From positions 1 through 28,817 of IMG/VR virus record IMGVR_UViG_3300045952_000348: a stretch of DNA of 28,817 nucleotides. One strand, given 5' to 3'. This DNA is from a virus. The translations under genes and the position numbers were made by a program. The notes beneath the pieces were generated by a model, which did no database searches, was not told the origin of the DNA, and was given only the letters and a program-made list of their open reading frames with translations. How positions within the stretch are numbered: position 1 is the first letter of the stretch; each line of letters starts with the position of its first letter. Shown here piece after piece: positions 5,905-22,915 of the stretch.

Positions 5905-5972
5905 GGTTTTGCTCCGTCAGGAGGTTTTTTGCTGGCTGGGAAAATGGAAAAGCGACGTGCTCCAGGTTCGGC

Positions 5973-7325: not shown

Positions 7326-8978
7326 TTACTTCTCCTGGTTGCCCGCGTCGTTCGCGGCCGGCTCGGGTTGCTCCTGCGCCGCGACCAGCGCCGCGGTCGT
7401 CTTCGATTCCCGGAAGCGGGCGGGGGCCAGTTGTTCCCAGCGGACCCTTCCCTCTTCGCCGGGAAACTGTCCATTGATCTCGTCCGCTTTCCGCTTGCAG
7501 TAGAGGACGATCTTGGCCTCGTCATCGACGGCCTTGGTGTACTCTTCGTCGAAGTCGAGCCCTTGCTGCGCGGCCCGCCGCCGGCCGGAGAGCAGGTGCT
7601 CCGACACGCTCAACGTGTCGGCCTGCGCATCTTTCAGCGGCTCGATGTATTTCCAGGCCGGCGGATGCCAGGCGTGCCCGAACACGTCGACCGACGTTTT
7701 CCCCCGCTCCATGGCCAGCAGTCGTCTCCGCAGCGCGGCGTCGTCGGCCGCGAACTGGCGGACCTTCCAGCGGTAGACCGGCCGGTACAAGCGGCGGATC
7801 ATGTAATCCTGGATGACCGCGAACCGCATCCGGGCCTGGTCGATGGCACCGCGCCAGCCGCTGAAATTGGTTTTCGTCGGGTCGAGCAGAAACACCTGCA
7901 GCGGCAGGTCCAGGTTGATGGCGACGAACGTCAGCACCAGGGCCGCATGCTCAAAGAACTGCGGCGAAGGGATGTTCGGCGACTCCATCTTGAGCTTTTC
8001 GCCGGGCCGCGATCGCACGTCCATGCCCGGGCCGATCCCCTGGATCGTGCGGACTGTGCTGTCTTCGTTGTCGTCGGTCCGCGTGCTCCCCGTGGCCGCC
8101 TTGCTGTCGGCGTCGCGGGCCGCCAGCCGCGGGGCATCTGCATCCCATTCGATCTCCCGGATGATCGCAAAGCAGCTGGCGACCTGCTGCTGCACGAGGA
8201 CCGCGAACTGGATGTCATCGTGCAAGCCCAGGGCATAGCACAAGGTGCTGAACGCGGTCACCCCGCGGCGCTGGCTGAACCGCTCCGGATCGTACACGTG
8301 GCACACCACCCGGTTGCCTTGCTTGTCCCGCGCCGGGTACTTTTCCACATCGGCCTGTGTCTTGAGCACTTCCCAGGGATCGGATTCCTTCCTGGTGCAC
8401 CAGTATTCCAGCCGCTTGCCGTACGGGTCGAGCTTCACCCCGAGCAGGACGTTCTTGTCCCGCGTGCTGCTGGGCGTGCGGACGCGATGGGCTTCCACCG
8501 CCTGCAGCGTCCCCTCCTGATTGAGCAGAAACAGGCAGTCGCCGTCGAGGATCCGGCTGCGGAACGCCAGGGCGGCCAGCTCGGCAAAGCACTTTTCCCC
8601 TTCCGCGTCGCACTGATCCTCATCTTCGGACCAGGCCTTGAACCGCAGCGACAGATCGGCGTCGAGCCCGGCGTCCCCGGTCGACGTGTCGAGCGAAAAG
8701 CCCCGCTGGAAGATGTTGGCGGTGAGCCGGTTGATCCCCTGCTTGACGACCAGGTTGTCCCGGTCGAAGGCCCGGGCCCGCTCGATCATGTACAGGAATT
8801 CGGGCTCATTCCGGAAGTGGTAATCGGCCCCGCTCCCCATCCGGTGCACGCCGCGGACGCGGGGGAGAAACCGCGAGTCCTTCCCCGCCTGATAGTCGGC
8901 GCGCAAGTCGTGCCAAGCTTCGCGGTACTCTTGCGAGAGCGGCAGCACGTCGCGGGCTTGGGACTTGTAGCGGGGCAT
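7326..8978 (-). CDS. Portal protein (lambda gpB family)
   Basis: A 550-residue protein of the size of lambda gpB (533). Features include an N-terminal DLRADYQAGKD-type helix, the conserved middle with RILDGDCLFLLNQEG and EAHRVRTPS near residues 140-170, a crown/stem region with YALGLHDDIQFAVLVQQQVA near residues 248-267, and DLPLQVFLLDPTKTNFSGWRGAIDQARMR split around residue 360-385, which is the gpB signature. The C-terminus is Gln/Ala/Glu-rich and likely disordered. The start codon directly follows the stop of the upstream gene (TAGATG), so translation is coupled; no independent Shine-Dalgarno is obvious. It forms the dodecameric DNA channel and the docking site for terminase. Confidence 0.87.
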   Translation of the reverse strand: MPRYKSQARDVLPLSQEYREAWHDLRADYQAGKDSRFLPRVRGVHRMGSGADYHFRNEPEFLYMIERARAFDRDNLVVKQGINRLTANIFQRGFSLDTSTGDAGLDADLSLRFKAWSEDEDQCDAEGEKCFAELAALAFRSRILDGDCLFLLNQEGTLQAVEAHRVRTPSSTRDKNVLLGVKLDPYGKRLEYWCTRKESDPWEVLKTQADVEKYPARDKQGNRVVCHVYDPERFSQRRGVTAFSTLCYALGLHDDIQFAVLVQQQVASCFAIIREIEWDADAPRLAARDADSKAATGSTRTDDNEDSTVRTIQGIGPGMDVRSRPGEKLKMESPNIPSPQFFEHAALVLTFVAINLDLPLQVFLLDPTKTNFSGWRGAIDQARMRFAVIQDYMIRRLYRPVYRWKVRQFAADDAALRRRLLAMERGKTSVDVFGHAWHPPAWKYIEPLKDAQADTLSVSEHLLSGRRRAAQQGLDFDEEYTKAVDDEAKIVLYCKRKADEINGQFPGEEGRVRWEQLAPARFRESKTTAALVAAQEQPEPAANDAGNQEK

Positions 8979-16236: not shown

Positions 16237-16827
16237 TTACCACCATTGGACGTAGAGCGGCGGCATCGGCGGCGGCGGCGTGTTCAGGATCACCACCCAT
16301 TGACCGCTGGCCAGATGATGCCGCTTAAATTCCTCTTCGCTGAACTCGTAGTGCTCGTCCGTGGTGCCCCCCCAGTTGTTCCGCACCTTCCACGGCTTGG
16401 AGTCGGCCGGATCGGGATTGAACCACAGCAGCGTCTGGAAGTGGGCCCGGAAACAGCCGATCGCGGCGATCCGCCCGCTCTTGGCGGCCCACTTCATCCA
16501 CTGCCAGGTGTTCGAGCCGGTGACGTTGTAGCAGGGGATGCCGCGGGCGTCGCCGTAGGCTTCCACCCGCGACGGGCCGCTGCCGCCGTGGACCTGGCGG
16601 CCATAATCGCTGTCAAACAGGAGCGTCGAAGCCTGCGGCACGTTCTGCCACACGCCGCAGTTGCTGATCGAGCATTGCACGCAGGAGCCGTCGCGGTTGA
16701 CGAACCAGGTCGAAACTTCCCCGGGGAGGGTGAGTTGATCCTGGGCGGCCGCGGTCGCTGCCGCGGCCAGAGAAGTGAGTAGTGCCAGGAGTCGGACCAT
16801 AAAAAAACGCGGAGCGCGACTGTGCAT
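16237..16827 (-). CDS. Secreted papain-like cysteine protease, first gene of the late operon
   Basis: With the ATG at 16825-16827 the protein has 196 residues and a signal peptide (basic start, VRLLALLTSLAAAATAAAQ). The papain-type triad can be placed: GSCVQC (C49, C52; C52 in the catalytic position of GSCGSC), H129 in RAHFQTLLWF, and N150 in KVRNNWGG (compare KNSWG of papain). The Shine-Dalgarno GGAG lies 4 nt before this ATG, inside a hairpin. A second ATG at 16800 lacks a Shine-Dalgarno. The protein probably acts in the periplasm or outer envelope; a lysin-like role is an inference from its neighbours. Confidence 0.68.
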   Translation of the reverse strand: MHSRAPRFFMVRLLALLTSLAAAATAAAQDQLTLPGEVSTWFVNRDGSCVQCSISNCGVWQNVPQASTLLFDSDYGRQVHGGSGPSRVEAYGDARGIPCYNVTGSNTWQWMKWAAKSGRIAAIGCFRAHFQTLLWFNPDPADSKPWKVRNNWGGTTDEHYEFSEEEFKRHHLASGQWVVILNTPPPPMPPLYVQWW

Positions 16828-16838
16828 CGCGCTCCGCG
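16801..16838 (-). terminator. Intrinsic-terminator-like hairpin overlapping the first late start codon
   Basis: Read on the minus strand, CGCGGAGCGCGA pairs perfectly with TCGCGCTCCGCG over a 7-nt loop and is followed by seven T (16801-16807). The 5' arm contains the GGAG ribosome-binding site and the loop contains most of the ATG. A formed hairpin would both terminate transcription and hide the start. It lies about 45-80 nt downstream of the predicted late promoter, so it acts as a leader element and not as the end of an upstream operon. Confidence 0.7.
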
Positions 16839-16888
16839 CCTCTCGTGACTTGCCGCTCTGCGGCCGCTCAGACCGTTGGTTCACCCGA

Positions 16889-16916
16889 AATCTATGGGTT
16901 TCCCTGTTCCGGTCAA
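16889..16916 (-). promoter_or_regulatory. Predicted late promoter (leftward)
   Basis: TTGACC (16911-16916), a 16-bp spacer, and TAGATT (16889-16894) on the minus strand. Spacing and -10 match the three early promoters of this window (16 bp; TAGATT is identical to promoter B). The expected start near 16882 gives a leader of about 55 nt before the ATG at 16827. Confidence 0.65.
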
Positions 16917-17059: not shown

Positions 17060-17296
17060 ATGCGGGAAAGGACCCCGGCCGCGCGAAGCGGCCGCGGCCT
17101 GGCCGAGCTGCTGGCATTGTCTGCCATCGTCGGCCGGATCGATCCGGCGGCCTGGCCGCAAGCGCGAGCAATTGGCCGGGATGTCGGCCGCTTGGCCAGG
17201 GAAGCGGCCGAGCTCGGCCGCCTCGAAAAATTTCCGGAAATTTTTCCCGATTCGCGAAACAATCTATTGCTTTCGACGATAATACATATAGACTGA
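17060..17296 (+). CDS. Possible small early protein overlapping promoter A
   Basis: A 78-residue Arg/Ala-rich frame (RSGRGLAELLALSAIVGRID) with a G-rich stretch before the ATG but without the CTGGAGCACG motif of the next ten genes. The last 24 codons are read from a promoter/operator block that elsewhere (18811-18884) is non-coding. At the equivalent position there the preceding gene stops with TGA, whereas here the codon is TCG. This suggests either loss of a stop or that the frame is not a gene. Longer ORFs upstream in the same frame have no protein-like character. Confidence 0.4.
   Translation: MRERTPAARSGRGLAELLALSAIVGRIDPAAWPQARAIGRDVGRLAREAAELGRLEKFPEIFPDSRNNLLLSTIIHID
17226..17294 (+). 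promoter_or_regulatory. Promoter A with palindromic operator
   Basis: TTGCTT (17267-17272), 16-bp spacer, TAGACT (17289-17294). Upstream lies the perfect 20-bp palindrome AAAAATTTCCGGAAATTTTT (17226-17245) and the 8-bp palindrome TTCGCGAA. The block is repeated in diverged form at promoter B. It drives the first GAUCAG-leader gene. Confidence 0.65.
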
Positions 17297-17311: not shown

Positions 17312-17367
17312 GGCCGCCGAATGATCAGATCCGGCGGCCTGGCAAGAACTAGCCTGGAGCACGTTCA
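17312..17367 (+). promoter_or_regulatory. Leader module 1 (GAUCAG hairpin plus CCTGGAGCACG)
   Basis: Stem GGCCGCCGAAT/ATCCGGCGGCC (one A-C mismatch) with loop GATCAG at 17323-17328, then CCTGGAGCACG at 17353-17363, 15 nt before ATG 17368. In this copy the pyrimidine tract is missing. Confidence 0.7.
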
Positions 17368-18069
17368 ATGCCGCGGTTTATCCTACCCGATAGCGCCCCG
17401 ATCCGCCAGCGCTTGCGTACCGCTAACCTGCCCGCGCTGGCCGCGGCCCGCAATCCCCTGCCCGCCGAGCTCGGCCCGTCGGCGCGGCGCTTTCGATCCT
17501 GGCCGATCGGCCGCGGCCGCGGCCGCGGCCTGGCCGCGCTGGCCGCGCTGTTGGCCGATGTTTCGGCCCGTCTTCCCCTGGCCGCGGCGCCGGCGCCGAT
17601 CCGCAAACTGCCGCAATGGGCGCTGGCGGAATGCCAGCGCCAAGCGCTGCCCGCCGACATGGTCGCGGCCGCTTTCGATTATCTGGCAGCGCAGAATGAG
17701 CCGGCTCACCGTTTGCGGGAAATGCGGCAAATGGCCTGGCAGTGCCACAATGCCAATTATCCGCGCTGCTGGCCGCAGTGGCGCCGCGGTTTTCAATCGC
17801 GCTATGGCAAGCGCGTCGACGCGCACGATTACGGGGTTATACCGCGGTACGACCAACTACATGGGGAAATCAGCGCGTACTTTCAAGAATTCGCTGGCCA
17901 GGAGCACGAGTACAAATTCTGGCAAGAGCTGCTCGCGCCGCTGCCAGCGCTGATTACCGATCGCGAATTGTGGGCGCAGGCGCTGGCCGCTGTCGCTGAA
18001 CATAAAGCGGCCGCGGCCGATCGGCCCGAGCTGCCGCGAGGCCAGGAGCACGATACGACGCAATTTTAA
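17368..18069 (+). CDS. Unknown early protein 1
   Basis: A 233-residue protein with the shared leader motif immediately upstream. The N-terminal 80 residues are Arg/Ala/Pro-rich and probably flexible. The middle (residues 95-200) is aromatic and well folded in appearance: AAFDYLAAQNEPAHRLREM, then HNANYPRCWPQWRRGFQSRY, then YFQEFAGQEHEYKFWQELL. No family recognised. The DNA is very rich in GGCCG words. It is the first gene with the leader module and lies just downstream of promoter A. Confidence 0.7.
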   Translation: MPRFILPDSAPIRQRLRTANLPALAAARNPLPAELGPSARRFRSWPIGRGRGRGLAALAALLADVSARLPLAAAPAPIRKLPQWALAECQRQALPADMVAAAFDYLAAQNEPAHRLREMRQMAWQCHNANYPRCWPQWRRGFQSRYGKRVDAHDYGVIPRYDQLHGEISAYFQEFAGQEHEYKFWQELLAPLPALITDRELWAQALAAVAEHKAAAADRPELPRGQEHDTTQF

Positions 18070-18117
18070 CCGCGGCCGCTTGGCCGCTTTCCGTTTCCCC
18101 AACCTGGAGCACGTACC
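18070..18117 (+). promoter_or_regulatory. Leader module 2 (CCTGGAGCACG, GAUCAG hairpin missing)
   Basis: CCTGGAGCACG at 18103-18113, 15 nt before ATG 18118, and a TTTCCGTTTCCCC tract. Only a 5-bp CGGCC/GGCCG stem is present. This is the only one of the ten modules without the GATCAG loop. Confidence 0.6.
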
Positions 18118-18369
18118 ATGCAAGCTTGCAAATTGTGTGCAATGGACGGGATGGACCGACTACCCAAATTGGCCGAGCTGATCGCCAGCAAACGCGCCAG
18201 CATCGCGCAAGAAATCGAGCGCGTTAGCGCCCAATGGCAGGCGCTCGGCCGCATGGGCGCGCAGCGCTCCGATCATGCCGCGGCGCTGCTGGCCAATGTT
18301 CGGCCGCTTGTGGCCGAGCTGGCCGAATTCTGCGCCGCAGTTTGCCAGCAGATTGAGAATGCCGACTAA
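18118..18369 (+). CDS. Unknown early protein 2, helical
   Basis: An 83-residue protein with a Cys pair at the start (ACKLC) and otherwise a continuous amphipathic helix or coiled coil (KRASIAQEIERVSAQWQALG). The start is fixed by the motif 15 nt upstream. No family recognised. Confidence 0.7.
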   Translation: MQACKLCAMDGMDRLPKLAELIASKRASIAQEIERVSAQWQALGRMGAQRSDHAAALLANVRPLVAELAEFCAAVCQQIENAD

Positions 18370-18380
18370 CTCCCCTGGCC

Positions 18381-18455
18381 AGCTCGGCCCGGATCAGCGG
18401 GCCGAGCTTGGCCGCTTTCCCCCATTTTCCGTTTCCCCAACCTGGAGCACGTGCC
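18381..18455 (+). promoter_or_regulatory. Leader module 3
   Basis: Stem AGCTCGGCCCG/CGGGCCGAGCT (11 bp perfect), loop GATCAG 18392-18397, pyrimidine tract, CCTGGAGCACG 18441-18451, ATG 18456. This has the longest distance between hairpin and motif (32 nt). Confidence 0.75.
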
Positions 18456-18812
18456 ATGCAATCGACCATTCCCGCCAATGCCACCAAAGCGCAGGAGCTT
18501 GAACACTTGGCCGCTTTCGTCCGCGCCTTGCCTGCCGGATCCTACTTGGCCAGCATGTTCCCCCCCGAGACGCTGGCCGAAGCGCAGCGGCTGATAACGG
18601 CCGATTTGATTCCCGACAGCCTGGCCGATAGCTGGAAAATCCGCGCGCAGCAGCAGGCCGAGACGTCGGCCGAGCTGGCCGCCGGCGCCAAGCGCCGCGA
18701 GCAGCTCCGCGCCGAGCTGGCCGATATGGAGCGCCAGCGGCGCCGCTTGGCCGATCAAATCGACGAGCTCCGCGCCGCCGCCCGCACGCTGGCCGCCCTG
18801 GCCGCGGCCTGA
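18456..18812 (+). CDS. Unknown early protein 3, coiled coil
   Basis: 118 residues. An N-terminal helical domain (TKAQELEHLAAFVRALPAG) is followed by a long charged coiled coil from about residue 60 to the end (REQLRAELADMERQRRRLAD). An upstream in-frame ATG at 18408 lies inside the hairpin and is rejected in favour of the motif-positioned ATG. The stop TGA directly borders the palindromic block of promoter B. No family recognised. Confidence 0.7.
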   Translation: MQSTIPANATKAQELEHLAAFVRALPAGSYLASMFPPETLAEAQRLITADLIPDSLADSWKIRAQQQAETSAELAAGAKRREQLRAELADMERQRRRLADQIDELRAAARTLAALAAA

Positions 18813-18879
18813 AAAATTCCGAAAATTTTTCCCGTTTCGCGAAACATTCTATTGCAATCGACGATATTAATAGTAGATT
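18811..18879 (+). promoter_or_regulatory. Promoter B with palindromic operator
   Basis: TTGCAA (18852-18857), 16-bp spacer, TAGATT (18874-18879). Upstream is an imperfect copy of the A/T palindrome and the perfect 12-bp palindrome GTTTCGCGAAAC (18834-18845). The predicted start falls at the 5' edge of hairpin 4. Confidence 0.68.
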
Positions 18880-18884
18880 GACAA

Positions 18885-18948
18885 CTCGGCCGCGGGATCA
18901 GCCGCGGCCGAGCGTAACACCCCTTCCCCTTATCCTGGAGCACGTACG
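18885..18948 (+). promoter_or_regulatory. Leader module 4
   Basis: Stem CTCGGCCGCGG/CCGCGGCCGAG (11 bp perfect), loop GATCAG 18896-18901, CCTGGAGCACG 18934-18944, ATG 18949. The hairpin begins about 5-7 nt after the -10 box, so it would form the extreme 5' end of the promoter-B transcript. Confidence 0.75.
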
Positions 18949-19527
18949 ATGTTAGTCCCCACGAATGAGCCCGGAATCGGACCGATCGCCCGCGCCGCTT
19001 TCCCCGACAATCGCAAACCGATCCAGGTATGCGAATTCCGCGGCCCGCAGAATGTCAATTCCTATTGGGATGGCGGATCGAAAGACGAGTACCGCTTGGT
19101 GCACTTGGTCACCGGCCAGGTATGGCACGCGCCGACTTCGCATCCCCATTTCGATCGCAAGGAAGACGGCAGCCGCTGCGGCGGCCTGGAGATTCGCGAA
19201 CTCCCCGAGAATGTCGCGCTCGTCAGCGGCGGTTATTTCTGCGGCAAACCCGCCACTATCACCGTGCACCTGCGCCCCGAGAATATGGTCAAGATGTTGC
19301 CGGCGCCGCAGGAGCTCGCGCCCGACCAGCAGGCCGCCCTAAACGTAATTTGCGGGATCAAATCAAGCTACCGCGCCGCCGAATTTGAGCGGCGCCAGCT
19401 CGGCCGCTACTCTGCCGACAACCCGCACTTGGCCGCACTGGTCGCCCGCGGCTTGCTCAAAATCAACAAGGCCGGCGCCATTTCCCCGACCATCGCGGGA
19501 GAGAACGCCCGCCAGCGCTTGTATTAA
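18949..19527 (+). CDS. Unknown early protein 4 (conserved-looking, two-part)
   Basis: 192 residues. Residues 20-120 are a beta-rich domain with conserved-looking motifs: VNSYWDGGSKDEYRLVHL, then APTSHPHFDRKEDG, then VALVSGGYFCGKPATITVHL. Residues 125-192 form a small helical domain resembling a winged helix (NPHLAALVARGLLKINKAG). It looks like an accessory-genome protein that I have no name for. Two cysteines (CGG, FCG) are unlikely to form a zinc site on their own. Confidence 0.72.
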   Translation: MLVPTNEPGIGPIARAAFPDNRKPIQVCEFRGPQNVNSYWDGGSKDEYRLVHLVTGQVWHAPTSHPHFDRKEDGSRCGGLEIRELPENVALVSGGYFCGKPATITVHLRPENMVKMLPAPQELAPDQQAALNVICGIKSSYRAAEFERRQLGRYSADNPHLAALVARGLLKINKAGAISPTIAGENARQRLY

Positions 19528-19540
19528 ACCCCTGGCCACC

Positions 19541-19606
19541 AGCTCGGCCCGGATCAGCGGGCCGAGCTCGGCCGCTTTCCCTTCCCCGAAACCTGGAGCA
19601 CGATCG
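19541..19606 (+). promoter_or_regulatory. Leader module 5
   Basis: Stem AGCTCGGCCCG/CGGGCCGAGCT (same as module 3), loop GATCAG 19552-19557, TTTCCCTTCCCC, CCTGGAGCACG 19592-19602, ATG 19607. Confidence 0.75.
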
Positions 19607-19801
19607 ATGCGACTTCCCCAAAACTTGACGCTTGATGAAGTGATGGACGCGGCCGAATGCGACGACGGCCGCGGATTCTGCCTGCAGTGCGGCGCCGAGC
19701 ACGACGGATGCGAGCCCGACGCGCGGCGCTACCCGTGCGACAACTGCGGCGCCCTGGCCGTATACGGCGCGCAAGAAATCATCATCGGCGCAATCGCTTG
19801 A
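19607..19801 (+). CDS. Small zinc-ribbon protein
   Basis: 64 residues with an N-terminal helix (LTLDEVMDAAECDD) and two CxxC knuckles (FCLQCGAEHDG and PCDNCGAL) followed by VYGAQEII. Similar small C4 proteins are common on plasmids and phages; their role is not known. The start is fixed by the leader motif; a longer frame upstream is a shadow of the preceding gene. Confidence 0.78.
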   Translation: MRLPQNLTLDEVMDAAECDDGRGFCLQCGAEHDGCEPDARRYPCDNCGALAVYGAQEIIIGAIA

Positions 19802-19817
19802 CCGATCCGCCGAGCTC

Positions 19818-19878
19818 GGCCGCGGGATCAGCGCGGCCGCTTTCCCTTCCCCCTCCCCCCCAACCTGGAGCACGTACG
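19818..19878 (+). promoter_or_regulatory. Leader module 6
   Basis: Stem GGCCGCGG/CGCGGCC with one bulged G, loop GATCAG 19826-19831, long pyrimidine tract, CCTGGAGCACG 19864-19874, ATG 19879. Confidence 0.7.
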
Positions 19879-20268
19879 ATGCAAACGACTACCCGCCGCC
19901 GACGCCGACGCATGACCCGCGAGGAGCGCCGCGACATGGAGCGCGACGCCCTGGCCCGCGCTCAAAACCCGATTGGCCCGCTTTCCAACTTCCCCGATAT
20001 TATCATCCAGTTTGCGGCCCGCGGCATTCCCGTGGCCGAGATCCGGCCGCGGGAAAACGTATTCACCTACCACGCCTGGCGCGCACTCGGCCGCCAGGTT
20101 CGCCGCGGGGAGCACGGCGTCAAGGTGACGACCTTCGTCCCCATGCAGCGCCGCGAGCGCGATCCGAGCACTGGCGAGGAGAAAACGACCGAGACGCGGC
20201 GGCCGGCCACGGCCGTAGTGTTCCACATCACGCAAACCGACCCGGTCGCCGAGGAGCTCAACACCTAG
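19879..20268 (+). CDS. ArdC N-terminal-domain-like protein
   Basis: 129 residues: a very basic start (six consecutive Arg), then NPIGPLSNFPDIII and the core NVFTYHAWRALGRQVRRGEH followed by GVKVTTFVPM. This pattern (aromatic-x-W-xx-GRxVRxGExG-x-xV) is shared with the ssDNA-binding N-domain of ArdC-type antirestriction proteins. The metallopeptidase domain of ArdC is absent, so this is a stand-alone version. It may bind single-stranded DNA; antirestriction is possible but unproven. Confidence 0.65.
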   Translation: MQTTTRRRRRRMTREERRDMERDALARAQNPIGPLSNFPDIIIQFAARGIPVAEIRPRENVFTYHAWRALGRQVRRGEHGVKVTTFVPMQRRERDPSTGEEKTTETRRPATAVVFHITQTDPVAEELNT

Positions 20269-20283
20269 CCGACCGTTTCCCCC

Positions 20284-20346
20284 GGCCGCGGCGGATCAGC
20301 GCCGCGGCCGCTTTCCCTTCCCTTCCCCCAACCTGGAGCACGTACG
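20284..20346 (+). promoter_or_regulatory. Leader module 7
   Basis: Stem GGCCGCGGCG/CGCCGCGGCC (10 bp perfect), loop GATCAG 20294-20299, CTTTCCCTTCCCTTCCCCC tract, CCTGGAGCACG 20332-20342, ATG 20347. Confidence 0.78.
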
Positions 20347-20973
20347 ATGACGACGACCACGAAAAAGACGCACGTTCAGACTTGGACCGGATCAGCCCGC
20401 CTTACTGACATGGAGCATGCCGGCAAGCGCGGCAAGCGCTGCCGCACGCTGCGAATCAGCGGCGCCCCTTGGACCGATACCGGAAACGATTCCCCGCGCG
20501 ATGCGGCCGCCCGCTGGACCTGGCAGCTTATGCACCGCCTGCAGAAGCTCGCGCCCGATGTCGCGACCCAGCCGCACCGCGCCCCGCGCTTTATCGTCCC
20601 GCTCCCCTTCGAGCAGGCGGCCGACATCGTCCGGCAGACAATCGAGGAGGCCCGGGCGGAGGGTGTCCCCGATGGTTATTTACAGGCCTACGATGAGGAG
20701 ATTCGCGGGATTGACGCCCCGCGCCCCGTGCTGTCCGCCGGCATTGCCGGAAAATGGAGCGCCACGGCCGACGAAGACGGCTTACACTTGGCCGACCTGG
20801 CCGACGCAATGAACGAGCCGAGAATGATCAACACCCGCCAAACCGACGCAGAAGCCTACCGCTTGGCCGCGAAAGTTTGGCACTTGCTGGCCCGCGCCCG
20901 CACGATGCACGAGGCGGCCGACATCTTGACCGCGGCCGGTTGCCGCCTGCATTACTATTGCGCGATGGACTAG
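20347..20973 (+). CDS. Unknown early protein 7
   Basis: 208 residues. The N-terminal third is basic and Thr/Lys-rich (MTTTTKKTHVQTWTG). The middle has RWTWQLMHRLQKLAPDVATQ and FIVPLPFEQAADIVRQTIEE, and the C-terminal part is helical (EAYRLAAKVWHLLARARTMH). No family recognised. GC and codon use match the neighbouring cassette genes. Confidence 0.7.
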   Translation: MTTTTKKTHVQTWTGSARLTDMEHAGKRGKRCRTLRISGAPWTDTGNDSPRDAAARWTWQLMHRLQKLAPDVATQPHRAPRFIVPLPFEQAADIVRQTIEEARAEGVPDGYLQAYDEEIRGIDAPRPVLSAGIAGKWSATADEDGLHLADLADAMNEPRMINTRQTDAEAYRLAAKVWHLLARARTMHEAADILTAAGCRLHYYCAMD

Positions 20974-20988
20974 CCGACCGATCCCCCC

Positions 20989-21052
20989 GGCCGCGGCGGA
21001 TCAGCGCCGCGGCCGCTGTCCCTTCCCTTCCCCATTCCCTGGAGCACGTACC
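20989..21052 (+). promoter_or_regulatory. Leader module 8
   Basis: Stem GGCCGCGGCG/CGCCGCGGCC, loop GATCAG 20999-21004, TGTCCCTTCCCTTCCCC tract, CCTGGAGCACG 21038-21048, ATG 21053. Confidence 0.78.
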
Positions 21053-21865
21053 ATGACACGCCGAGAACGACTAGAGCGAAAACTGGAGAAGCGCCGCCAA
21101 TGGGCCGATGGCCGCCGCGCCGACGCGGCCGCCAGATTCGACGCGGCCGACGCCGCTACCGCCGGGATCCCGTTCGGCCAGCCGATTCTTGTCGGCCACC
21201 ATTCCGAGAAGCGGCACCGCGCCGCCCTGGACCGCTCCGATCGCAATATGGCCGCCGGCTGCGAATCGCTGCAGATGGCCGAGCATCACGAGAGCAAAGC
21301 GGCCGGTCTGGAGTCGCAGCTCGAGCGCTCCATTTTCTCCGACGACCGCGGCGCCATCGAAGCGCTGACGGAAAAGGTTCGCCAGCTCGAGGAGGAGCGC
21401 GACACCGCCAAGCGGCTTAATAGCTATTGGCGAAAACATGGCACGATGAAAGGCTGCGCCGGCATCACCGACGAGACGGCCGCCAGGCTGGACGCCGACA
21501 TACCGACGCGCTACAGCTGGGAGCGCCAGCCCGTCCCCGCTTACCGCCTGCAGAATCTAGGCGCCGAGATCCGCCGCGCCAAACAGCGGATCGAAGAGAT
21601 CCGCAAGCGGAACGCCCGCGCCGAGCAGGCCGAGCAGGCCGGCGGTTCGCTCGTCACCATCCGCGGGCAATGGGCCGTTGTCACGTTTGCCGAGAAGCCC
21701 GCGCGGGAAATCCTGGACGCGCTGAAAGCGGCCGGTTTCCGCTGGGGCGCCGGATCGTGGGGCGGGTATGCGGACAAACTCCCCGCCGCCGTCCGCGAGC
21801 TGGCCAGCCTGGCCGATCCGGCCGCCGAAAATTCGGCTACGCAACCTCTTGCAATCGACGATTAA
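21053..21865 (+). CDS. DUF3560 family protein
   Basis: 270 residues with the full arrangement I know for DUF3560: an N-terminal RERLERKLEKRRQWADGR helix, IPFGQPILVGHHSEKRHR, a coiled-coil middle with HHESKAAGLESQLERSIFSD and EKVRQLEEERDTAKRLN, NLGAEIRRAKQRIEEIRKR, and the C-terminal FAEKPAREILDALKAAGFRW domain. These proteins are common on plasmids and phages and of unknown function. The last codons (QPLAIDD) are read from promoter C. Confidence 0.85.
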   Translation: MTRRERLERKLEKRRQWADGRRADAAARFDAADAATAGIPFGQPILVGHHSEKRHRAALDRSDRNMAAGCESLQMAEHHESKAAGLESQLERSIFSDDRGAIEALTEKVRQLEEERDTAKRLNSYWRKHGTMKGCAGITDETAARLDADIPTRYSWERQPVPAYRLQNLGAEIRRAKQRIEEIRKRNARAEQAEQAGGSLVTIRGQWAVVTFAEKPAREILDALKAAGFRWGAGSWGGYADKLPAAVRELASLADPAAENSATQPLAIDD

Positions 21866-21876
21866 ACCAATACAAT
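21825..21876 (+). promoter_or_regulatory. Promoter C inside the 3' end of the DUF3560 gene
   Basis: TTGCAA (21849-21854), 16-bp spacer beginning TCGACGATTAAA, TACAAT (21871-21876). TTGCAATCGACGAT is identical to promoter B. An imperfect palindrome GCCGAAAATTCGGC lies upstream. The predicted start coincides with hairpin 9. Confidence 0.65.
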
Positions 21877-21883
21877 GAACCCC

Positions 21884-21942
21884 GGCCGCGGCGGATCAGC
21901 GCCGCGGCCGCTTTCCCCGCCCCCAAACCTGGAGCACGTCCC
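21884..21942 (+). promoter_or_regulatory. Leader module 9
   Basis: Stem GGCCGCGGCG/CGCCGCGGCC, loop GATCAG 21894-21899, short pyrimidine tract, CCTGGAGCACG 21928-21938, ATG 21943. The hairpin starts 7 nt after the promoter-C -10 box. Confidence 0.78.
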
Positions 21943-22368
21943 ATGCTGACGACCGAGAAGAAATCGACCCGCAAGGCGGAAACGCTCCGCCATTGGCAGG
22001 AGCTCCCGCCGGCGCAGAATCCGCTGGAGCATATGCAGGCCATCGAGTACCAGGCCCGCGGCAGCCGCTACGGCGCGTGCGGGATCCGGATCGACGGCAC
22101 GCCCGAATTCATCGACGCCGTACTGTCGAACTTAAAGCAGCTGCTGGCCGGCGAGAATTGCGTTACCCGCCTGGAGCTGTCGCGGGCCCGCGTGCTCCGC
22201 GAGCAGAGCGGCCCGGTCGACGGCCGCAAATTCGTCAACGCCGAGGAGCGGGCCGAATGCTGCTACATCCGCCTGCACCAGCGCGGCCGCCAGGCCCTGC
22301 CCCAGCACCAGCTGGCCGCCCGCGGCATCGCCCGCGCCCGCCCCGTGCAGCCGCCGACGATGTTTTAG
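21943..22368 (+). CDS. Unknown early protein 9
   Basis: 141 residues with an N-terminal helix (KAETLRHWQELPPAQNPLEH), a beta strand-helix unit (GACGIRIDGTPEFIDAVLSN), and a basic C-terminus ending in RARPVQPPTMF. No family recognised. The start is set by the leader motif; an ORF extending 170 codons upstream is a shadow of DUF3560. Confidence 0.7.
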   Translation: MLTTEKKSTRKAETLRHWQELPPAQNPLEHMQAIEYQARGSRYGACGIRIDGTPEFIDAVLSNLKQLLAGENCVTRLELSRARVLREQSGPVDGRKFVNAEERAECCYIRLHQRGRQALPQHQLAARGIARARPVQPPTMF

Positions 22369-22389
22369 CGCACCGCCACCGTCACGACC

Positions 22390-22444
22390 GGCCGCCGGGA
22401 TCAGCCGGCGGCCCGTTTCCCTTCCCCAACCTGGAGCACACCCG
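22390..22444 (+). promoter_or_regulatory. Leader module 10
   Basis: Stem GGCCGCCGG/CCGGCGGCC (9 bp perfect), loop GATCAG 22399-22404, TTTCCCTTCCCC, CCTGGAGCACA 22430-22440 (last base changed), ATG 22445. Confidence 0.75.
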
Positions 22445-22915
22445 ATGCACGCCGAACCGTTCACCTTGACCGGCCGCCCGAAGATCAGCCGGCAGAAATT
22501 CCCGCACGACCAGCGCCGGCAGGCCGTGCTATTTTGCGGCCTGGACGACAGCCCCGGCCAGGAGAATCTCTTTCCCACCGACGGACGGGAGGAAGAGGTC
22601 AGAGAGCAGAGAGCAGAGGTCAGAGCGGAACCGGAGCCCGCCCCGCCCCTCTGCGCCTCTGCGCCTCTGCGGTTCGATCCGCCCGCCGCGCCCGTGGCCG
22701 AGCCGAAGGACATCGACCAGGCCGAGCCCGGCGACTTGATCCAGGCCGCCACGCGCAACCCCTGGGGACGCATCGAGCCCGCCTGGCTGCTGTTTATGAA
22801 GATGCTGCCGCGGGCCGACGCCCGCCGCATCGCCCGCGAGGAAGGCGGCCGCGCGGTCTGCTACGACCACGCCCGCCAGCGCTTCGCCGTGCTCGTCCCG
22901 CAAATCGAAGAATGA
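22445..22915 (+). CDS. Unknown early protein 10 with two in-frame repeat inserts
   Basis: 156 residues. The N-terminus (FTLTGRPKISRQKFPHDQRR) and the C-terminal half (GRIEPAWLLFMKMLPRADAR) are protein-like. The middle (EEEVREQRAEVRAEPEP, then PLCASAPLRF) is translated from a CAGAGAG/CAGAGGT heptanucleotide array followed by a CTCTGCG-type dispersed repeat. The stop codon itself lies in an AATGACC array. No family recognised. Confidence 0.65.
   Translation: MHAEPFTLTGRPKISRQKFPHDQRRQAVLFCGLDDSPGQENLFPTDGREEEVREQRAEVRAEPEPAPPLCASAPLRFDPPAAPVAEPKDIDQAEPGDLIQAATRNPWGRIEPAWLLFMKMLPRADARRIAREEGGRAVCYDHARQRFAVLVPQIEE
22593..22627. repeat. Heptanucleotide array CAGAGAG/CAGAGGT, inside a gene
   Basis: AAGAGGT CAGAGAG CAGAGAG CAGAGGT CAGAGCG, translated in frame; an 8-bp CTCTGCGC dispersed repeat follows at 22645-22676. 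Confidence 0.75.

Follow-up and report, generated by a model that had tools for sequence, protein, structure and literature searches.

A repeated hairpin and extended start box precede ten consecutive genes of a likely planctomycete phage

The start-associated sequences (SAS) of cluster K mycobacteriophages, described in 2011, are 13-bp asymmetric repeats with a GGAG-type core, which accompany the start codons of some of the non-structural genes. They are conserved beyond the Shine–Dalgarno core, and about half have an upstream inverted repeat (PMC3203893; PMC11373665; PMC12699233). These longer units, the extended start-associated sequences (ESAS), are thought to act at the DNA level (PMC3203893, PMC11373665). 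The ESAS of Adephagia contain SigA-like promoters (PMC11373665), and RNA hairpins in cluster K ESAS had little support in the analysis of Pope et al. (PMC3203893). In cluster EF Microbacterium phages, an SAS-like extended ribosome-binding site, GGGAAAGGACCCC, occurs ten times, and upstream of each copy lies an element with the conserved hexamer GTAGAG at its centre (PMC7302621). The element analysed here lies in a 28.8-kb IMG/VR virus fragment, record IMGVR_UViG_3300045952_000348 (positions 1–28,817, termed the window as a whole), in which ten consecutive plus-strand genes, g1 to g10, are each preceded by a leader comprising a hairpin and an extended start box.

The start box, CCTGGAGCAC, begins exactly 15 nt before the ATG in 10/10 genes, and its GGAG core lies 8 nt from the ATG. 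Its 11th base is G in nine genes and A in g10. Both the fixed distance and the single variable last base had been described in an earlier interpretation made without database searches (the sequence-only reading), and both stand. Matches to the box with one mismatch number 15 in the window, compared with a mean of 2.9 and a maximum of 8 in dinucleotide shuffles. As a conserved asymmetric repeat held at a fixed distance from all ten start codons, the box exceeds a Shine–Dalgarno core. The copies are as follows.

17353–17363, plus strand: g1 start box CCTGGAGCACG, 15 nt before the ATG at 17368
18103–18113, plus strand: g2 start box CCTGGAGCACG, ATG at 18118
18441–18451, plus strand: g3 start box CCTGGAGCACG
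18934–18944, plus strand: g4 start box CCTGGAGCACG
19592–19602, plus strand: g5 start box CCTGGAGCACG
19864–19874, plus strand: g6 start box CCTGGAGCACG, ATG at 19879
20332–20342, plus strand: g7 start box CCTGGAGCACG
21038–21048, plus strand: g8 start box CCTGGAGCACG
21928–21938, plus strand: g9 start box CCTGGAGCACG
22430–22440, plus strand: g10 start box CCTGGAGCACA, differing in the last base

The hairpins lie upstream of these boxes.

17312–17339, plus strand: g1 hairpin, loop GATCAG, 10/11 pairs with one A-C mismatch
18072–18087, plus strand: g2 hairpin, GCGGCC-GCTT-GGCCGC, 6 bp with loop GCTT and no GATCAG, followed by TTTCC
18381–18408, plus strand: g3 hairpin, 11 bp, AGCTCGGCCCG, loop GATCAG
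18885–18912, plus strand: g4 hairpin, 11 bp, CTCGGCCGCGG, loop GATCAG, at a predicted mRNA 5′ end
19541–19568, plus strand: g5 hairpin, 11 bp, stem as in g3
19817–19839, plus strand: g6 hairpin, 8 bp, 7-nt loop GGATCAG
20283–20310, plus strand: g7 hairpin, 11 bp, CGGCCGCGGCG, loop GATCAG
20988–21015, plus strand: g8 hairpin, stem as in g7
21883–21910, plus strand: g9 hairpin, stem as in g7, at a predicted mRNA 5′ end
22390–22413, plus strand: g10 hairpin, 9 bp, GGCCGCCGG, loop GATCAG

GATCAG is identical in all nine hairpins that carry it, including g6, where it sits within the 7-nt loop. The sequence-only reading had counted nine GATCAG hairpins with perfect stems of 8–11 bp; this description holds for seven, six of 11 bp and one of 9 bp, and fails for g1, which has a mismatch, and for g6, which has the longer loop. 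The tenth leader, for which that account named no hairpin, carries the 6-bp GCTT hairpin of g2 at the position equivalent to that of the GATCAG hairpins. The region has seven hairpins that close a hexaloop with a stem of 9 bp or more, and all seven lie in leaders; shuffled sequences gave 0 in the leaders and a mean of 0.12 across the region. The perfect stems include at least four differing sequences, AGCTCGGCCCG, CTCGGCCGCGG, CGGCCGCGGCG and GGCCGCCGG, each with its exact complement, as had been claimed. As one stem is shared by g7, g8 and g9 and another by g3 and g5, all as exact duplicates, the independent stems number five or six rather than nine.

The surroundings of the hairpins are also regular. 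Most begin 11–21 nt after the upstream stop codon, and six of the nine intergenic gaps measure 76–79 nt; the gap before g2, which lacks a GATCAG hairpin, is 48 nt. A CTTTCC-like tract follows the hairpin, directly or within a few bases, in 8/10 leaders, and neither this tract nor a T tract is present after the g1 and g4 hairpins. In predicted folds the hairpin is separate from the start box and the pyrimidine tract is mostly unpaired. A search with the 4227 models of Rfam 15 left the leader region without a hit at E ≤ 1. In g3 and g5 (18398–18420 and 19558–19575), the 3′ arm could instead pair in a small hairpin just 5′ of the CTTTCC tract, which would exclude the main one; the alternative in g5 was listed by a terminator scan.

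Pairing was assessed by aligning the five distinct stems on the loop and comparing cognate with swapped arms; all copies are paralogous and come from this one genome. Arms pair with their own partners at 96% of positions and with swapped partners at 40%, and arm identity among stems is 35–39% (35% for the 5′ arm). In a six-row alignment, double-sided changes occur at all 11 pairs, and the covariation score of 0.836, against 0.271 for shuffles, was reached by 0/500 shuffles and fell to 0.24 or below once the arms were slid by 1–3 nt. The proposal that pairing is kept while sequence changes is therefore borne out inside this genome. As GATCAG is constant in 9/9 hairpins while the stems differ at almost every position, the loop itself appears to be constrained.

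The box resembles cluster K SAS in accompanying the starts of many non-structural genes and in extending beyond the Shine–Dalgarno core, but its sequence, CCTGGAGCACG, differs, and no match to GGGATAGGAGCCC was found within two mismatches. The inverted repeats are of another kind. In TM4, the ESAS arms are 85% identical and pair at 87% of positions with cognate and 83% with swapped partners, in agreement with the view of Pope et al. (PMC3203893). Cluster K ESAS have conserved 17-bp arms around a varying spacer, whereas the present leaders keep the loop constant between arms that are 35–39% identical and vary yet still pair. Furthermore, SigA-like promoters lie inside the repeat in cluster K, while the promoter-like boxes found here lie outside the hairpin and only at g1, g4 and g9. 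The cluster K analogy drawn in the sequence-only reading accordingly survives for the layout and not for the inverted repeats, as the TM4 arms are conserved and their pairing is unsupported. The ESAS of AnnaSerena, a cluster EF phage, looked closer on paper and was rejected as a counterpart of the hairpin: the flanks of GTAGAG form none, with 0–3 of 10 positions paired.

The nearest match for the hairpin itself is the T4 family of intercistronic UUCG hairpins. Nine intergenic TTCG hairpins of T4 have differing stems, which pair at 98% of positions with cognate and 62% with swapped arms. As here, a fixed loop is closed by varying, paired stems between a stop codon and the next start. The loop here, however, is GATCAG and not the C(UUCG)G tetraloop, which is intrinsically stable, and the T4 hairpins have no fixed extended start box and vary in their spacing to the start codon. 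The element therefore joins a start box of the SAS kind to a fixed-loop hairpin like those of T4, and belongs to neither family. The earlier statement that no description of such an element was known is softened to this extent. For the start box, the RegB targets of T4 offer a model of what it could do: many early genes carry an extended ribosome-binding sequence with GGAG, which a trans-acting factor reads (PMC3014915). The box, GGAGCACG, departs from the RegB consensus GGAGRAYARAA.

Virion genes, including those for a lambda-type portal, an S49 protease and a GpA terminase, occupy the minus strand in the left half of the window. The relatives of the terminase, 46–59% identical, lie almost exclusively in planctomycete genomes and metagenome-assembled genomes, so a planctomycete host is likely. 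The leader-bearing genes (17368–22915) follow directly on a divergent region at ~16.9–17.3 kb, and are best explained as genes without a structural role in a siphophage of planctomycete type.

Covariance models recover all ten leaders of this genome. The sequence-only reading had proposed a search of planctomycete phage genomes for GATCAG hairpins followed by the box and ATG; covariance-model and pattern searches of planctomycete genomes, related loci and IMG/VR brought up no second genome with the system. In ~790 planctomycete genome searches, made up of two slightly overlapping draws, model R2 gave seven matches, one per genome and none with a GATCAG hexaloop plus box; the best of them looked like an ordinary intergenic hairpin in single copy. 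Nothing convincing was found by covariance-model search in 65 related loci, nor any recurrent start box or loop in terminase-sharing phages. Box counts in 392 planctomycete genomes gave scattered single matches without clusters, and exact-pattern scans of IMG/VR (box plus ATG, loop plus box, a longer box and one hairpin core) gave chance-like matches only. The leader element is real, orderly and well outside chance, and so far confined to one genome. On one planctomycete chromosome (L270, ~7797–7864, minus strand), a single gap combines a GC hairpin of 14 bp with a pyrimidine tract and ACCGGAGCACCCGCCATG. Its parts are ordered like those of the leader (CCCTTTCTCCTCCCTTCCCC and GGAGCACCCGCCATG; GGAGCACC before ATG), with another loop and in single copy, and the module may have arisen from an ordinary intergenic unit of this kind.

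The anatomy observed in the ten leaders, pairing maintained in five different stems, a loop that does not vary and a start box at constant distance together suggest a module that works as RNA. It is tentatively proposed that this transcribed module places the ten cistrons under common RNA-level control, its loop being read by a putative trans-acting factor. The module would consist of a GC hairpin with the fixed loop GAUCAG, an unstructured pyrimidine-rich spacer and the extended ribosome-binding site CCUGGAGCACG, copied before ten consecutive non-structural genes. The hairpin would fold once past the stop codon of the preceding gene or, downstream of the three predicted promoters, at the 5′ end of the mRNA, and may protect, process or attenuate the RNA. 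The loop would probably be read by an RNA-binding protein or endonuclease of phage or host. Such a factor may govern all ten cistrons at once, through their stability, translation or shut-off; the start box would fix translation initiation at equal strength in each. A loop-recognising factor is the most economical postulate because the loop is constant while the stems change.

In N/boxB antitermination of lambdoid phages, a small, Arg-rich protein of the phage recognises the loop of an RNA hairpin; the sites are few per genome, occur with boxA and do not precede every gene. The g6 product has an Arg-rich N terminus, TTTRRRRRRMTREERR, a parallel that serves as a lead only, and on composition alone it is a candidate loop reader. 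That one phage-encoded or recruited RNA-binding factor reads GAUCAG on nine mRNAs, and so coordinates an early, partly anti-restriction-like operon post-transcriptionally, is a rather doubtful extension of the proposal. If true, it would constitute an RNA regulon of several cistrons, with the hairpin and the extended ribosome-binding site joined in a single portable leader, an arrangement that was not found described in phages. The function of SAS in actinobacteriophages has been unassigned since 2011; the present leaders would provide an independent case from a different phage lineage, in which an upstream repeat that pairs as RNA around an invariant loop points to an RNA-level role.

Several points weigh against RNA-level control through a loop reader. 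The reader is a postulated factor only, and the T4 hairpins show that a fixed loop can exist without a dedicated one. No second genome with the system was found among the planctomycete genomes, the 65 loci or IMG/VR. The stem differences are partly register shifts: GGCC is present in every arm at differing distances from the loop, so there are fewer independent compensatory events than the counts suggest. Finally, the 88 pairs comprise 79 GC/CG, seven AT/TA, two mismatches and no G-U, although drift at the RNA level would be expected to leave some G-U pairs. Their absence leaves room for selection on a DNA palindrome or for a palindrome-making mutation process.

A close rival, ranked just behind the loop-reader proposal and a distinct possibility in its own right, is that these are intercistronic terminators, attenuators or mRNA-stabilising hairpins of the T4 UUCG type, combined with a favoured ribosome-binding site and spread by duplication, with no loop reader. 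The T4 precedent, the start of most hairpins shortly past a stop codon, the CTTTCC-like tracts and the similarly built gap on the planctomycete chromosome (CCCTTTCTCCTCCCTTCCCC, GGAGCACCCGCCATG) all agree with it, and a terminator scan with a lax threshold listed g2, g6, g7 and g10 as terminator-like. The leaders nevertheless depart from a canonical intrinsic terminator, in which a GC stem is followed immediately by a U tract: the tails are mostly CTTTCCC-like, and g1 and g4 have none, compared with U7 at the phage's own minus-strand hairpin (16808–16838). Promoter-like boxes also bear on this rival.

17267–17294, plus strand: promoter-like box P1, TTGCTT-16 nt-TAGACT, upstream of the g1 hairpin
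18852–18879, plus strand: promoter-like box P2, TTGCAA-16 nt-TAGATT, upstream of the g4 hairpin
21849–21876, plus strand: promoter-like box P3, TTGCAA-16 nt-TACAAT, upstream of the g9 hairpin

All three share TCGACGAT after the −35 element, and copies or near copies of TTGCAATCGACGAT stand directly 5′ of the g1, g4 and g9 hairpins. These hairpins are thus predicted to lie at or near the mRNA 5′ end, that of g1 starting ~15 nt further into the mRNA; elsewhere, the position beyond the stop codon leaves the hairpin clear of the terminating ribosome. Directly below a promoter, a hairpin cannot terminate an upstream gene transcribed from that promoter, so the hairpin stays with its gene even where there is no upstream gene to terminate. 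Moreover, terminators or stabilisers need neither an invariant non-tetraloop loop nor an 11-nt invariant start box.

An improbable alternative places the function in the DNA, as a protein-binding operator or a recombination site for the exchange of gene cassettes. The unit does lie between unrelated genes at uniform spacing, its stems are perfect Watson–Crick palindromes free of G-U pairs, and the cluster K ESAS provide a DNA-level parallel (PMC3203893, PMC11373665). Unlike operators, however, its half-sites vary in sequence and register, loop and box are held in one orientation and tied to a start codon, and the searches for relatives found no second genome with swapped cassettes. That the hairpins have no function and arose in a GGCC-rich region through replication errors that generate palindromes, and through duplication, is very improbable: the exact duplicate stems and the abundance of GGCCGC words in the region fit, but drift would not preserve an invariant loop and start box, nor confine the long-stemmed hexaloop hairpins to the leaders.

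Two narrower identifications were also rejected. A sigma-54 promoter in TGGAGCACGNNNNATGC fails on spacing (GG-N12-GC rather than GG-N10-GC) and on the missing GC in several genes, and a single-stranded-DNA promoter of conjugation fails as the hairpin lacks a −10-like element.

The leader module marks gene starts, and two of these, at 19879 and 21943, correct starts that the longest-ORF (open reading frame) rule misses: g6 begins within a longer ORF at 19657–20268 and g9 within one at 21670–22368. The genes are listed below.

17368–18069, plus strand: gene 1, 233 aa, without family
18118–18369, plus strand: gene 2, 83 aa
18456–18812, plus strand: gene 3, 118 aa, coiled-coil-like
18949–19527, plus strand: gene 4, 192 aa
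19607–19801, plus strand: gene 5, 64 aa, Cys-rich, weak zinc-ribbon matches
19879–20268, plus strand: gene 6, 129 aa, ArdC N-terminal-domain-like, Arg-rich N terminus
20347–20973, plus strand: gene 7, 208 aa
21053–21865, plus strand: gene 8, 270 aa, DUF3560
21943–22368, plus strand: gene 9, 141 aa
22445–22915, plus strand: gene 10, 156 aa, the leader being absent from later genes

Gene 6 resembles the N-terminal domain of the anti-restriction protein ArdC (PDB 6i89, 6sna). Its relatives sit on plasmids, several of them within proteins annotated DUF3560, and gave no match to the leader model. A homologue search for gene 7 found none, and the DUF3560 protein of gene 8 has no relative among the terminase-sharing records.

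Further features were noted in the window. An extra exact copy of the box (CCTGGAGCACG; AACCTGGAGCACGT) lies on the minus strand at 5956–5966, in the intergenic gap after the S49 protease gene; it is followed by CGCTTTTCCATTTTCCC, with the leader parts in swapped order and no adjoining start codon. Also on the minus strand, 16798–16916 holds a promoter-like TTGACC-16-TAGATT, a perfect 12-bp hairpin (16808–16838) and U7, after which the first leftward gene starts with its ATG at 16800. The hairpin resembles a terminator placed in the leader of the operon of virion genes, as in systems with late antitermination. GATC occurs 249 times in the window, an estimated ~2.8 times the expectation from base composition. 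Nine short period-7 tandem arrays, at 2903, 10191, 14011, 23322, 23639, 23698, 24199, 24797 and 26469, have nine differing units (e.g. CCTGAAC, CCCCAAT, GACGTTG and GGTGAGT). Several lie in gaps preceding genes, and they recall the heptanucleotide tandem repeats of some bacteria.

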